From positions 1 to 23,396 of the IMG/VR virus record IMGVR_UViG_3300030102_000846: a stretch of 23,396 nucleotides of DNA; one strand, written 5' to 3'. Origin of the DNA: a virus. Both the position numbers and the translations under genes were made by a program. Numbering within the stretch: position 1 is the stretch's first letter; every line of letters starts with the position of its first letter. The notes under the pieces are model-generated. The model was not told the origin of the DNA. It did not search any database and was given only the letters and a program-made list of their open reading frames with translations. Below, piece after piece: positions 3,472 through 8,148 of the stretch.

Positions 3472-4353
3472 CTACTTTCGGATACGCAGCGGGTACTGGC
3501 GGTTCAAACGTGCAGCTTCAGCAATGACGCGATCACGACGTAAACGTTGCAGCTGCAACATTGAGTTGGCTACTGCGCCTGACGGCACTTCGTCAGCCCG
3601 ACGGGTGTCGCCCTGCGACTCTGTAAAGTTGCGTTTAATTTCACGACCAGCCATCAAACGGATTTGTGCGCCCAACGCAAGCACATCATCAAGGAAGTCG
3701 GAGCCTCCAACAGTGCTAATAGTGTCTGATTCGCTGCTGAACTGCCCGTACGGTGCCCGGTAGATCACACGCACTGTGCCTGCACGGACAAGGGTGTCAA
3801 ACGCAAGCACATAGCCGGACGCAAAGTCTGAGGTTGGCATATCTGACAGTAGGCGGGTGTCACGGATGATGGGGTAGTCGTCTGACAGATAGCGGTAGCG
3901 CACATCAATCAGGTTGAGGATGTCGGTTGCGCCCGTGATGTTGACCATACGGTCACTACCGTTGTACGCAATATCGACAGTTTTGACTTGGAACAAACCG
4001 TTAAGAGGCGAAGACAAGTCAGCAAGATCGGCGTTTAACTGCTGCAACACCCGTGCCCGTGGGAATCGAGGGTTGACAGTCACGATGTCAGCAGCAGAGT
4101 GCGAAGCAGCCGTAGTGCCATTGAAGCCACGCTGCACGACAGCGGATTTCGCAGAAGAGTTGACTGTCCACACATAGAACTGTTCTGAACCGATCTCGAA
4201 TACTGTGCCTTCGCGTAGACCAGACAGGGCAAATTCAAACGTGACGGTGGTTGTGGACGCGTCGATACCCGCCGCAACCCTGTTACGTTCTTCTACCGTT
4301 CCTGCCAACAGTTCGCCAGCAACACGGTCAATGAGTTGACCTGCTGTAGTCAC
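3472..4353 (-). CDS. Putative head-tail connector/adaptor protein
   Basis: A 293-residue protein starting with GTG at 4353; GTGA overlaps the stop of the preceding 29-residue gene by four bases, which fixes the start through coupling. Residues 1-30 are helical (MTTAGQLIDRVAGELLAGTV). Residues about 35-95 form a beta module ending in QRGFNGTTAASHSAADIV, and residues about 96-290 are mainly helical with basic C-terminal helices. This is the layout of adaptor proteins that sit under the portal in short-tailed phages; N4-gp56-type phages usually encode an SU10/N4-like adaptor. The beta module is shared with the N-terminus of the fibre at 191-1609. The connector role is inferred from layout and from the position before the nozzle-like gene. 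Confidence 0.6.
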   Translation of the reverse strand: MTTAGQLIDRVAGELLAGTVEERNRVAAGIDASTTTVTFEFALSGLREGTVFEIGSEQFYVWTVNSSAKSAVVQRGFNGTTAASHSAADIVTVNPRFPRARVLQQLNADLADLSSPLNGLFQVKTVDIAYNGSDRMVNITGATDILNLIDVRYRYLSDDYPIIRDTRLLSDMPTSDFASGYVLAFDTLVRAGTVRVIYRAPYGQFSSESDTISTVGGSDFLDDVLALGAQIRLMAGREIKRNFTESQGDTRRADEVPSGAVANSMLQLQRLRRDRVIAEAARLNRQYPLRIRK

Positions 4354-4439
4354 TTCTTCTTCTTATCCGTACGCTTTCTTTTTTTCTTGGGCTGCATGCC
4401 GTATGAACCAGCGGGCTTCTTTTTTCCGTATGCCATCAT
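4350..4439 (-). CDS. 29-residue Lys/Arg-rich miniprotein
   Basis: ATG at 4439 is followed directly by a second ATG at 4436, and the reading frame closes at 4350-4352 (29 residues). The protein is MMAYGKKKPAGSYGMQ followed by a tail that is almost all Lys and Arg. GGAAGG lies five bases before the first ATG. The start overlaps the stop of the 44-residue gene, and the end overlaps the GTG of the connector by four bases, so it fits the coupled operon on both sides. No family is recognised. Such a tail could bind DNA or an acidic capsid surface, but that is a guess. Confidence 0.6.
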   Translation of the reverse strand: MMAYGKKKPAGSYGMQPKKKRKRTDKKKK

Positions 4440-4570
4440 CGTTTCCTTCCCATCTTCATTTTTGATTCGGCTGTTGACAGCGCAGGACCGAACGACCTAT
4501 CGCCGGGTTTATTTGACTGAGCGGACTTGCCGCCTTTTTTCTTCATGTGAACGCCACCGTAATGCGCCAT
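4436..4570 (-). CDS. 44-residue basic miniprotein
   Basis: The start is ATG at 4570, one base after the stop of the 83-residue gene, with AGAGGA six to seven bases upstream inside that gene. The protein begins MAHYGGVHMKKKGGKSAQSN, continues with a Pro/Ser-containing middle and ends KMKMGRKR. Its stop codon overlaps the start of the next miniprotein (ATGATG junction). No domain is recognised. Good ribosome-binding site, coupling on both sides and a composition like its neighbours argue that it is a real gene, although it is very short. Confidence 0.6.
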   Translation of the reverse strand: MAHYGGVHMKKKGGKSAQSNKPGDRSFGPALSTAESKMKMGRKR

Positions 4571-4571
4571 G

Positions 4572-4823
4572 TCATTTCCTCTTCTTATGTAAGCCGTGCG
4601 AAGCGTACTGCTTGCCGGACTTTGTTGCTTTGCGTTTTTTGGCTGTAGCCGCCGCCAACTTGCGACGACCTGCCGCTGTTTTTTTCAGCTCGTCAATTTT
4701 TTTCTTTGGTGCATAAACCTCACCTGAAGCTTTTGAACCTTGCGTTGATGGACGGCCAGACGGTGTAGTCCAATCTTGTTTAGTCCACTTGTCCAAAGAC
4801 TTTTGTGACTTGGACTTAGCCAT
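4572..4823 (-). CDS. 83-residue Lys-rich protein with SLDKWTKQDW motif
   Basis: ATG at 4823 shares its A with the TAA of the upstream gene (TAATG). The N-terminal motif SQKSLDKWTKQDWTTPSG is followed by RPSTQGSKASGEVYAPKK, then a highly basic helix with several AxxKKRK blocks. The S-L-x-x-W-x-x-x-x-W pattern followed by a small-residue turn recurs in short proteins of environmental phages and some large DNA viruses (DUF5872-like), to my recollection. Function is unknown in all of them. Its place among other basic miniproteins suggests a virion or assembly role. The family resemblance is moderately sure, the role is not. Confidence 0.75.
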   Translation of the reverse strand: MAKSKSQKSLDKWTKQDWTTPSGRPSTQGSKASGEVYAPKKKIDELKKTAAGRRKLAAATAKKRKATKSGKQYASHGLHKKRK

Positions 4824-5005
4824 TACTTGCCTCTGCTCTTGCGAGCCTTCGCTTGCGCTGTCTTGCTCAAGCCACCGTAATGGTAAACACGCTTACTTGA
4901 TGCTGTATGAGAAGCTCCGGTATGGAGATCACCGTTTGCCATTTTGTGAACTTTGCCGTTGTACGGTTTGCCATCTCGAAAATAATGCTTGGTTGATTTA
5001 GCCAT
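4823..5005 (-). CDS. 60-residue basic protein (KHYFRDGKPYNG type)
   Basis: It starts at ATG 5005, overlapping the upstream TGA by one base (TGATG), and ends at 4823 overlapping the next start. The sequence MAKSTKHYFRDGKPYNGKVH, then MANGDLHTGASHTASSKRVY, then a basic tail reads as a short beta hairpin with two G-K/H-x-H turns followed by a helix. Similar small proteins occur beside the SLxxW-type protein in uncultured aquatic phages, as I recall, with no known function. No enzyme or metal site is complete. Translational coupling on both sides supports it as a gene. Confidence 0.7.
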   Translation of the reverse strand: MAKSTKHYFRDGKPYNGKVHKMANGDLHTGASHTASSKRVYHYGGLSKTAQAKARKSRGK

Positions 5006-5193
5006 CAGTTTTTGTATCCTCCACCAGCGGCCTTGTACCGCTTCGCTAACATCTGAGCTTTACGCGCAGACCACTGACCGGGCCTACCGCCCTTACCACC
5101 AGCCTTGATCTCGTTAAACATACGTTTCCGCATCGCAGGCTTCGTGTAGTTCCCGGCCTCATTGACACGGGATTTTGACTTCTTCGCTACCAT
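5005..5193 (-). CDS. 62-residue conserved basic phage protein (NEAGNYTKPxMRKR type)
   Basis: ATG at 5193 lies inside the end of the upstream gene (seven-base overlap, ATGGTAG), with GGAG nine bases before it. The protein contains VNEAGNYTKPAMRKRMFN, then AGGKGGRPGQWSARKAQMLA, and ends KRYKAAGGGYKN. This combination of a Y-T-K-P-x-M-R-K-R helix and a G-Q-W-S-A-R-K-A-Q motif is one I recall in many small proteins of marine and freshwater phages, where it has no assigned function. It resembles a DNA- or RNA-binding basic fold but lacks a known signature. It is strongly basic, like its neighbours. Confidence 0.75.
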   Translation of the reverse strand: MVAKKSKSRVNEAGNYTKPAMRKRMFNEIKAGGKGGRPGQWSARKAQMLAKRYKAAGGGYKN

Positions 5194-5444
5194 GCTTCAC
5201 AACTCCAGTAACGGGCTTTGGTTTTTGGACCAGGATTGTCACAGTTATGACGAGCATCAAACGACTTTTTGCGAGCAGGATCTTGTTTCTTGATCTTCAT
5301 GTTCGGGTCGCCAAACATAACTTTCTTTACTTTCGAGCCATCTTTGACATACACCAAAGACTTCTTACGACCGTACCCTGGTTCACCTTTACGGATACGG
5401 CGAGGCGAGTTCAACTCAACGGTTTTGCCTTGATACACAGCCAT
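5187..5444 (-). CDS. 85-residue conserved phage protein (ARHNCDNPGPKTKARYW type)
   Basis: It starts at ATG 5444, 12 bases after the upstream stop, with no clear ribosome-binding site, and ends in GAAGCATGGTAG, which contains the next start. Residues 1-55 look like a small beta domain with LVYVKDGSKVKKVMFGDPNM. The C-terminus carries a motif I recognise from many environmental phages: SFDARHNCDNPGPKTKARYW, then SCEAW. The two cysteines with the nearby His could bind metal. In some phages this motif is fused to, or lies next to, capsid and maturation genes, but no function is established. Only the family-level recognition is firm. Confidence 0.75.
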   Translation of the reverse strand: MAVYQGKTVELNSPRRIRKGEPGYGRKKSLVYVKDGSKVKKVMFGDPNMKIKKQDPARKKSFDARHNCDNPGPKTKARYWSCEAW

Positions 5445-5456
5445 GCCAAAATTGTA

Positions 5457-5723
5457 CTACAGAATTCCGGTCACAACCTGTGAAGAATGGTCTGCTTTTT
5501 TCTCGATGTTCGCTGCGCCATCAATTTGTGCTGGCTGTAAACCGTCCTGTTTCAGGCGTTTATAGGCATCCATGTCCTTTGACCACTGTCGTTCTGTGGC
5601 CTCGATGCGGTTGTTGTCCTGTTTTCTGGACGGCATAGATGATGCAGCGAATGACACGCCTGCGATCCTGCAACCAAAACAGCCTTCGACATCAAGCGTT
5701 GGATGTACTTCACGATGTTTCAT
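5457..5723 (-). CDS. 88-residue conserved hypothetical protein with GCFGC motif
   Basis: ATG at 5723 follows the upstream TAG by two bases; a GGGAG lies further upstream than usual (about 15 bases). The protein starts MKHREVHPTLDVEGCFGCRI, then a Ser/Ala/Pro segment ending SMPSRK, then a charged helix (IEATERQWSKDMDAYKRLKQ) and QPAQIDGAANIEKKAD. This order (K-H-R-E-x-H-P-x-L-D-V-x-G-C-F-G-C, then Y-K-R-L-x-x-x-G-L-Q-P) is familiar from actinobacterial and aquatic phages as a small late protein of unknown role. The CFGC pair plus His residues could hold a metal. It is less basic than the genes that follow it. Confidence 0.7.
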   Translation of the reverse strand: MKHREVHPTLDVEGCFGCRIAGVSFAASSMPSRKQDNNRIEATERQWSKDMDAYKRLKQDGLQPAQIDGAANIEKKADHSSQVVTGIL

Positions 5724-6900: not shown

Positions 6901-8148
6901 TTACGACTCCAGTGCGGCGATACGAGCCTCTAGCGCATCAATCTGAGTTTTCTGACGTTGAACCACATTAATTAGATGCGGAACAATGCGGTCGTACTCG
7001 ACGGACTCAGGTTCCGTTAAAACCGACTGCGGGTATTCAATGTGTCCGTCCTCGTCTTCTGTACCTTCGTAGTCTGGGTCAGGACCAAAGTGGACTAGAC
7101 GGGGTTCGATTTCTGCGACTTCTTCAGCGATTAAACCGTAGTAGGAATATCCTTCAGGATCGTTACCTGTTGCGGACCTGTACCAAACTGGTCGCAGTTT
7201 GAAAATCAGATCGGCGTACTCGTCTTCCAACGTTTCAATGTTGCTCTTGTATTTCGCTGATGACGTAGACCGATGTATCGAATTGTTGCTTGTGTTGATA
7301 AACATGTTTGCAGACGAACTGGTTGTCAAATTCACAATGTTCGTGGAACGAACAACAGTTGTTACAACACGGAACGATTCTGAACCGCCACTAGCGTGAA
7401 CCCTGAAAGAGCCAGCCTCGCTTGAATCGCCAACATCCAAAAGATCGTTAGGATCCTGTGTGCCAATACCAATATGCCCTGTATCGTCAATCGTCATACG
7501 GAGGCTGTTGTTGTATCCACGAAACAACATATCGTTTCTTGAAATGTCAAAACCGATACCGCCACGAACAGCGTCATCCTGATCCCCGAAATAGATAAAC
7601 GGGTCACTGCTATCTGTTGACTGGAAACGAATCTCAGGGGATGACGCACCTCTAATATCAAGTAGTCGCTGTGGATCATCCGTCCCGATGCCAACGCTGC
7701 CAGATTCGCTAATCACCATACGAGTAGAAGGAACAACGTCAGAGTCAGAATTCCGAGTCTGAAATACCAAGAATCCGTCATAATCAGCAACGTCAGTTTC
7801 AATGACACCGATGCGAGCAGACGGGTGTGTCCCTGAATTCCAATGATGGAAACCCATAAACACTGAGCCTTGATTCGTTGACCCAGGACCGTTACCCGAA
7901 AGACGCAGTGCCTCACGGTCGTCATCTCCCATCAAGTGCAGTTGAACAACGGGGCTGGTCGTACCAATACCGACACGCTCATTAGCGTCATCAATGTACA
8001 AAGGGGCACCATCCAACAACGCCAACTCGATAGCCTCAACAGCATCATTTACATTCGTATGCTGTGCCGCATGATCCGGCGAATCCAGCGTGTCACTGGA
8101 CGTAGGATTAGTCAGGCTGTCCTGAGAAGTCGGAAAGTTGGTTGCCAT
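6901..8148 (-). CDS. Tail fibre with C-terminal S74 intramolecular chaperone
   Basis: A 415-residue protein starting at ATG 8148, overlapping the upstream TGA by one base. Residues about 60-260 contain repeated G-I-G-T-x-x-P-x-x-x-L motifs (RVGIGTTSPVVQLHL, SVGIGTDDPQRLLDI, HIGIGTQDPNDLLDV), typical of triple-stranded phage fibre shafts. Residues about 292-415 match the Peptidase_S74 (endosialidase-type) chaperone: SSAKYKSNIETL, then LRPVWYR, YGLIAEEVAEIEP and a C-terminal coiled coil (IDALEARIAALES). Ser296 and Lys301 have the spacing of the Ser-Lys dyad of endosialidase, so self-cleavage just before Ser296 is expected. It would release the last 120 residues after trimer folding. Family knowledge supports the chaperone; the exact cut site is inferred. 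Confidence 0.9.
   Translation of the reverse strand: MATNFPTSQDSLTNPTSSDTLDSPDHAAQHTNVNDAVEAIELALLDGAPLYIDDANERVGIGTTSPVVQLHLMGDDDREALRLSGNGPGSTNQGSVFMGFHHWNSGTHPSARIGVIETDVADYDGFLVFQTRNSDSDVVPSTRMVISESGSVGIGTDDPQRLLDIRGASSPEIRFQSTDSSDPFIYFGDQDDAVRGGIGFDISRNDMLFRGYNNSLRMTIDDTGHIGIGTQDPNDLLDVGDSSEAGSFRVHASGGSESFRVVTTVVRSTNIVNLTTSSSANMFINTSNNSIHRSTSSAKYKSNIETLEDEYADLIFKLRPVWYRSATGNDPEGYSYYGLIAEEVAEIEPRLVHFGPDPDYEGTEDEDGHIEYPQSVLTEPESVEYDRIVPHLINVVQRQKTQIDALEARIAALES

Follow-up and report, generated by a model that had tools for sequence, protein, structure and literature searches.

A recurring cassette of basic miniproteins in a seven-gene block beside the connector gene of an IMG/VR virus

Introduction

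The DNA considered here, from a marine virus of bacteria, is 23,396 bases long and forms the IMG/VR record IMGVR_UViG_3300030102_000846 (the window hereafter). Its minus strand encodes a terminase, a portal, a major capsid protein, a connector-side protein and fibres. Directly ahead of its connector-side gene, CON293, lie seven tiny open reading frames, which an earlier reading of the letters (the original prediction) had described as one conserved set of mostly basic miniproteins. Comparison with related loci shows a composite block: a fixed gene, F88, is followed by a four-gene mobile cassette, F85-F62-F60-F83, and then by two lineage-specific genes, F44 and F29. The idea of a single set thus survives in part. 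Four of its members do recur together, while F88 belongs to the core of the lineage, F44 is found in this lineage only, and F29 is represented by three distinct sequences.

Layout, charge and selection

All seven frames begin with ATG and occupy 5723-4350 of the minus strand, with the place and lengths first described for them: F88 at 5457-5723 (88 residues), F85 at 5187-5444 (85), F62 at 5005-5193 (62), F60 at 4823-5005 (60), F83 at 4572-4823 (83), F44 at 4436-4570 (44) and F29 at 4350-4439 (29). F85 and F62 overlap by 7 nucleotides (nt), F62 and F60 by 1 nt, and F60 and F83 by 1 nt; F83 and F44 are 1 nt apart; F44 and F29 overlap by 4 nt, as do F29 and CON293, whose GTG start codon overlaps the F29 stop. 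The 12-nt gap between F88 and F85 is the sole junction that is neither an overlap nor a 1-nt gap. With such spacing, the overlapping or abutting frames of the block look translationally coupled.

Five to six of the products had been called strongly basic, and the higher figure holds. The six frames besides F88 have net charges of +14, +15, +12, +20, +9 and +12 and isoelectric points (pI) of 10.1-11.2, whereas F88 has a net charge of +1 and a pI of 7.8. This charge is a property of the families and not of the window copies alone: the family-wide median net charge per 100 residues is +25 for F62, +25 for F83, +20 for F85 and +20 for F60, against +2 for F88. Basic charge is therefore maintained across the F62, F83, F85 and F60 families. 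None of the seven window proteins matched a family in Pfam or NCBIfam.

All seven frames are under purifying selection. Pairwise Nei-Gojobori counts gave median ratios of nonsynonymous to synonymous substitution (dN/dS) of 0.08 for F88, 0.12 for F85, 0.16 for F62, 0.37 for F83 and, from 4 pairs only, 0.10 for F60. The two smallest frames, for which the original prediction had proposed a selection check, show the same signature: F44 has a median of 0.29 over 32 distinct coding sequences, and the three distinct F29 sequences differ at 8 sites, every one third-position and synonymous. An all-synonymous pattern of this kind appeared in 0 of 20,000 neutral draws at three transition biases, and the 29-codon F29 is therefore very probably translated. 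Spurious frames in purine-rich DNA would be a natural suspicion for so short a ladder, as the two smallest frames have no PHROG or Pfam family, and F29, which is 38% lysine, has a lysine-rich tail encoded by a purine-rich stretch that lies just ahead of the CON293 GTG start. However, the low dN/dS in six families, well under 1, together with the synonymous variation of F29, means that the seven are not chance frames. The suspicion is refuted for F88, F85, F62, F60, F83 and F44; for F29 the case rests on few sequences. As an account of the block as a whole, its likelihood is close to nil.

A mobile cassette in a variable slot

The slot between F88 and CON293 varies in content. Of 92 distinct F88-to-CON293 slots, 36 contain F85 only, 16 contain F85-F44 and 8 contain F44, and 24 are devoid of every family. 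Rarer contents are F62-F83 (2 slots), a fused F62-F83 gene with F85 (2), F85-F62-F83-F44 (1) and the full six-gene series (3). The slot is an insertion site with changing cargo, and the cassette is accessory, because its families are absent from the slot in a quarter of the relatives.

Beyond this slot, the families are widespread. IMG/VR holds at least 585 relatives of F62, at least 418 of F85 and at least 554 of F60. Eighty loci found with F62 alone and 80 found with F60 alone were inspected; they are incompletely dereplicated, and their counts describe a sample. Within 1 kb of F62, F83 was present in 71 of 80 loci and F85 in 33 of 80; within 1 kb of F60, the corresponding numbers were 37 of 80 for F85, 20 of 80 for F83 and 14 of 80 for F62. 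This proximity is sharply local. Around F62, the density of F83 is 0.45 per kb within 1 kb and at most 0.02 beyond 2 kb, and that of F85 is 0.21 per kb against a background of 0.02-0.04. Around F60, F85, F83 and F62 reach 0.24, 0.13 and 0.09 per kb within 1 kb and at most 0.01 at 2-3 kb. The marker genes of the window clade (capsid, connector-side and P617 genes) are missing from every one of the 80 F60 loci and from all but 2 of the 80 F62 loci. The viruses in this sample thus lie outside the window lineage, and the cassette recurs in viruses unrelated to it.

Motif families that travel together in environmental phages had been anticipated for four members of the block. For F85, F62 and F83 this proved right; the fourth, the GCFGC protein F88, is a lineage gene that does not travel with them, and F60, a His- and Lys-rich miniprotein with no PHROG or Pfam entry that had been overlooked, recurs with the other three across unrelated viruses. 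Conservation of gene order is partial. The window order 85-62-60-83 is found in a single further instance (L407), whereas elsewhere the order is 62-60-83-85 (L418, L454, L466 and L480) or 62-83-60-85 (L422, L423 and L426), and the slot contents vary as described above. In two loci, L418 (2093-3659) and L466 (4837-6165), curli-like genes, recognized by eye as a CsgG-like lipoprotein and a curlin-like repeat protein, lie downstream of the cassette.

Named phages with at least one family include HMO-2011, CRP-1, CRP-345, MEP402, HTVC033P, P12053L, ICBM2 and several cyanophages, in which the genes are annotated as hypothetical. The HMO-2011-type and Zobellviridae marine phages among them (HMO-2011, CRP-1, MEP402 and HTVC033P) resemble the window in carrying homologues of F62, F83 and F85 as small hypothetical genes between head and tail genes. 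They differ in that their core genes are unrelated and that the homologues sit near terminase, lysis or fibre genes rather than in an F88-connector slot. Other sites of the cassette in phages are beside the terminase (MEP402 and CRP-1), after tail genes and next to lysozyme.

F62 and F83 as halves of a DUF5872-like protein

The two members most tightly associated in the sampled loci are complementary parts of one protein. F62 (PHROG 17747, E 7.7e-35) and F83 (PHROG 14910, E 3.7e-12) are separate genes in the window, with F60 between them. In L142 and L220, both phages of the window lineage, they are fused within the same slot, and F62 is 61% identical to the L142 fusion over the shared part. 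The L142 protein matches nearly the whole profile of DUF5872 (PF19197) at 23.6 bits, just below the gathering cut-off of 27.5 bits, and a cellular homologue (L307) exceeds that cut-off at 28.6 bits. F62 and F83 themselves give no match to PF19197 at E up to 1. DUF5872 is known from bacteria and from algal double-stranded DNA viruses, Chrysochromulina parva virus BQ1 among them (PMC12085832). F62 aligns with its N-terminal half and F83 with its C-terminal half, but unlike the known family the two flank another gene and escape the Pfam profile, and even the fused phage copies fall below the cut-off.

Across all loci, 35 fusions matched by both the F62 and F83 profiles were counted. A genome scan with F62 returned 420 relatives; the same scan with the fused phage protein as query found nothing, so that the F62 alignment was needed for matches. 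The one-chain form occurs in many cellular genomes, with single two-domain proteins in Spirosoma, Fibrella, Hymenobacter, Corallococcus, Acidobacteriaceae and Rubrobacteraceae. It is rare in the Bacteroidota sample (1 of 148 genomes). In several Pelagibacteraceae (SAR11) the domain order is reversed to F83-F62, and among 99 Pelagibacteraceae genomes 11 have this form complete. This reversed gene is chromosomal in SAR11, and in L292 and L315 it is flanked by two genes that were named by eye as SDR and TspO-like. The SAR11 chromosomal fusions of L292, L297 and L315 (at about 4734-5150) are candidates for a host-side function.

These relationships show that F62 and F83 are two halves of one DUF5872-like protein and share common ancestry with their fused homologues. 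Fusion in both orders, together with adjacency as separate genes, is a standard genomic sign of physical pairing. A DUF5872 protein can thus exist as two genes that phages exchange, from which mutual binding of the halves is to be expected; F62 and F83 would then form one complex. As to what such a complex might bind, one cellular protein (L321) combines DUF5872 with a Rho_N domain (E 1.3e-5, above cut-off) and a SAP domain (E 8e-4, below cut-off). This fusion favours nucleic-acid binding by F62 and F83 and, although a single protein, is the best evidence for it.

A confident AlphaFold2 model of the fused L142 protein, built from 24 sequences, reached a mean predicted confidence (pLDDT) of 89.5 and a predicted template-modelling score (pTM) of 0.67, and a model of F85 from 36 sequences, with beta hairpins and two helices, a pLDDT of 91.2. 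Neither model matched a solved structure in the PDB (no Foldseek match at E ≤ 0.001; best VIA Z of 2.0 and 2.1), which is not proof of new folds. Searches of PDB sequences with the fused-DUF5872 profile likewise gave nothing convincing.

F85 and the capsid protease of ICP1

F85 provides a tie to the phage head. This basic mobile miniprotein matches PHROG 7595 (E 2.8e-14) and PHROG 9979 (E 1.4e-4), the latter over positions 199-257 of 278, and its family keeps FG, R-H and Y-W positions. Positions 4-84 of the hidden Markov model of the family match residues 183-261 of gp125 of phage ICP1 at 56 bits, including the FG, R and YW positions. Matches of the F85 model in BFVD, a collection of predicted viral structures, include ICP1 ORF125 and phage proteins named XkdF and ChaB. 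ICP1 gp125 is annotated as a capsid protease; it carries Peptidase_S78_2 at residues 37-160 (Pfam, E 8.2e-10), and its gene lies between the portal and scaffold genes in a portal-protease-scaffold-decoration-coat operon. The protein is predicted to mature the ICP1 procapsid (PMC9040626; PMC7567579). By this alignment, F85 is the same domain as the C-terminus of gp125, matched over the whole of F85, although in the window it is a free 85-residue protein without a protease part; gp125 itself is of the Peptidase_S78_2/XkdF family. The link favours a head association for F85.

Much fainter is the relationship to Tlr6F. Eleven of 33 F85 relatives gave weak matches to DUF5754 (PF19058), the best at 1.5e-4 and all below cut-off; the window F85 gave no match, and none exceeded the 27.4-bit gathering cut-off in 14 records. 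By sequence, F85 may be described as a weak relative of Tlr6F/DUF5754, a protein of unknown function whose conservation has been reported for polinton-like viruses, for virophages and giant viruses, and for some phages that are poorly characterized (PMC4642659; PMC12220804). In BFVD, the F85 model gave a weak match to a Tunisvirus protein (E 0.21, TMq 0.45). Like F85, Tlr6F is small and widespread; unlike it, the F85 relatives sit in tailed phages, adjoining the F62/F60/F83 cassette. One algal virus encodes both DUF5754 and DUF5872 proteins (PMC12085832). In addition, a gene "G" has been described as common to polinton-like viruses, phycodnaviruses and bacteria (Yutin et al., 2015), and this gene may correspond to the DUF5872 family.

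Several other candidate relationships of F85 were set aside. Erlin matches of its profile in the PDB sequence search, none with an E value below 0.024, are most simply explained by chance; the label "HVA1 family protein" on F85 in CRP-901/902 is unsupported by any family scan; and the Peptidase_S78_2 label on a 124-residue GR7B protein is, unlike that of ICP1 gp125, unsupported by Pfam. Two further occurrences of the family deserve record. Methylophilales phage Melnitz-3 (L235, 2327-4279) encodes a 650-residue fusion of a cytidylyltransferase-like domain, DUF5824 and the F85 domain. In Roseobacter phage SIO1 (NC_002519), a homologue with 67.6% identity to the L147 copy lies on the minus strand at 24065-24277, in an unannotated stretch, and the F85 gene thus appears to be missing from the SIO1 annotation.

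Possible functions of the cassette

T4-like phages package internal proteins that are small, basic and made with the head. The window miniproteins share this size, charge and head context, and no sequence relation is claimed. The reading that we favour, at a probability of about 0.42, is that the cassette encodes accessory proteins that are expressed late, associate with the head and bind nucleic acid, F62 and F83 doing so as a pair. The cassette proteins would be made late, together with head and neck parts; an F62-F83 complex would bind DNA via its basic surface; and F85 would bring its partners to the prohead or to packaged DNA. In this way the cassette could help to charge-balance, organize or protect the packaged genome, or could enter the cell with it. 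Neutralization of packaged DNA, sealing of the portal and injection to act on the host nucleoid had been proposed at the outset, all as conjecture: nucleic-acid binding is now favoured by the Rho_N/SAP relative and a head context by gp125, whereas nothing speaks for portal sealing in particular.

Several observations pull the other way. For none of the members did the search find protein data from virions or infected cells, and the literature on virion proteomics of cassette-bearing phages yielded no evidence: the cobavirus paper makes no mention of mass spectrometry, and by the ICP1 review virions are not fully analysed. Among nucleic-acid-binding proteins of solved structure, none matches the predicted folds, and the Rho_N/SAP fusion is known from one cellular protein. 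F85 may serve for docking to the prohead and not for binding DNA, because the ICP1 protease is predicted to act in scaffold removal, when the capsid holds little DNA. Finally, since DUF5872-like proteins are chromosomal in some bacteria, the role of the pair would not be confined to virions.

Much of what makes the cassette conspicuous would also be expected of host-takeover or counter-defence genes, so-called morons, lodged at a tolerant late site, without a role in the particle and directed instead at a defence system, at RNA polymerase or at the nucleoid of the host. Such genes would be mobile, would leave the slot variable in content and often without the cassette, and would turn up at varied late-module sites in other phages; hosts moreover have chromosomal DUF5872-like copies. 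Against this, the position is late and apparently coupled rather than in the early region, the F85 domain occurs on a capsid protease, and purifying selection has kept the families recognizable across widely diverged members, whereas anti-defence genes change fast. We regard takeover as somewhat unlikely. The capsid-protease link fits more comfortably with a role in head and neck assembly, in which F85 would dock to the prohead and the others would be small scaffolding, connector or decoration parts, binding protein and not nucleic acid. The location of the F85 domain within the ICP1 portal-protease-scaffold-decoration-coat operon, the BFVD matches named XkdF and ChaB, and the placement of the block between head and connector genes all agree with such a role. 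However, the cassette families cannot be needed for assembly, because 24 of 92 relatives' slots hold none of them, and neither the strong, conserved basic charge nor the fusion of an F62-F83 protein to Rho_N/SAP is what protein-binding parts would predict; this explanation strikes us as rather unlikely.

Small, basic proteins with a Rho_N fusion and with chromosomal copies in bacteria could, conceivably, be RNA-binding or translation helpers instead, for example RNA chaperones that aid late expression and have nothing to do with DNA or the particle. Structure searches found no ribosomal or RNA-chaperone fold, and the capsid-protease link would be left unexplained, which makes this a rather remote prospect.

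Returning to genome-associated accessory proteins, a broader and more doubtful extension is that one genome-handling kit is common to tailed phages and to eukaryotic DNA viruses of the large or polinton-like kinds. It would consist of a Tlr6F-like protein and a DUF5872-like pair, acting on viral DNA either inside the particle or at entry. Phages would trade this kit as a cassette, with DUF5872 split into obligately interacting halves. Tlr6F and DUF5872 have long been listed as widespread virus proteins of unknown function, and relatives of both now stand in one short phage cassette. The parts belong or relate to known families without function; what has not been described before, to our knowledge, is their arrangement in a cassette, the splitting of the pair and the link to the protease. 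The interest is moderate and would be greater if the proteins prove to be virion components.

Lineage genes, boundaries and neighbours

The remaining members of the block belong to the window lineage. In the first collection, 142 loci carried F88 (PHROG 24600, E 1.2e-32), and the order P95-F88-[slot]-CON293-P617 is kept wherever these genes are visible. Across 22 diverse members, H7, P8, C15 and C18 are invariant within a conserved pattern H-x3-H...CxxC. Because H7, C15 and C18 do not vary, the pattern suggests a small metal site, putatively for zinc; a PDB sequence search with the F88 profile gave nothing convincing. A homologue is gp41 of Streptomyces phage FlowerPower (E 1.2e-8), separated by one gene from gp43, the homologue of CON293 in that phage. 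By this homology, F88 is traceable to Streptomyces phages and is best classed as a core gene of the head/neck operon, outside the basic set. F44, one of the basic miniproteins, was found in 64 loci, all in the window's phage lineage, and F29 in close relatives only.

CON293 (3472-4353, minus strand; 293 residues; PHROG 7578, E 5.9e-85) bounds the variable slot on one side and has at least 346 IMG/VR relatives. The named relatives of the window terminase and connector-side gene are all distant, the best including two unannotated "Caudovirales sp. ct2KA10" records and Streptomyces podoviruses. Because these relatives are so distant, the lineage is judged to be essentially uncultured. An actinobacterial host is possible.

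On the other side, the block is bounded by P95 (5726-6013, minus strand; PHROG 23524, E 8.2e-18), an acidic conserved gene immediately upstream of F88, and the order P95-F88 is kept in most clade loci. The same PHROG 23524 is matched by the C-terminal part of the neighbouring P294 (6013-6897, minus strand), a paralogue-like relationship, and P294 contains a tandem repeat with a unit of about 20 residues (RTATGSGxG...GLHKHL). Further upstream, the C-terminal region of a 415-residue fibre (6901-8148, minus strand) matches the C-termini of further phage proteins, fibres among them, with PHROG 3299 and PHROG 37852 matched at about residues 275-413, as is seen with intramolecular chaperone domains.

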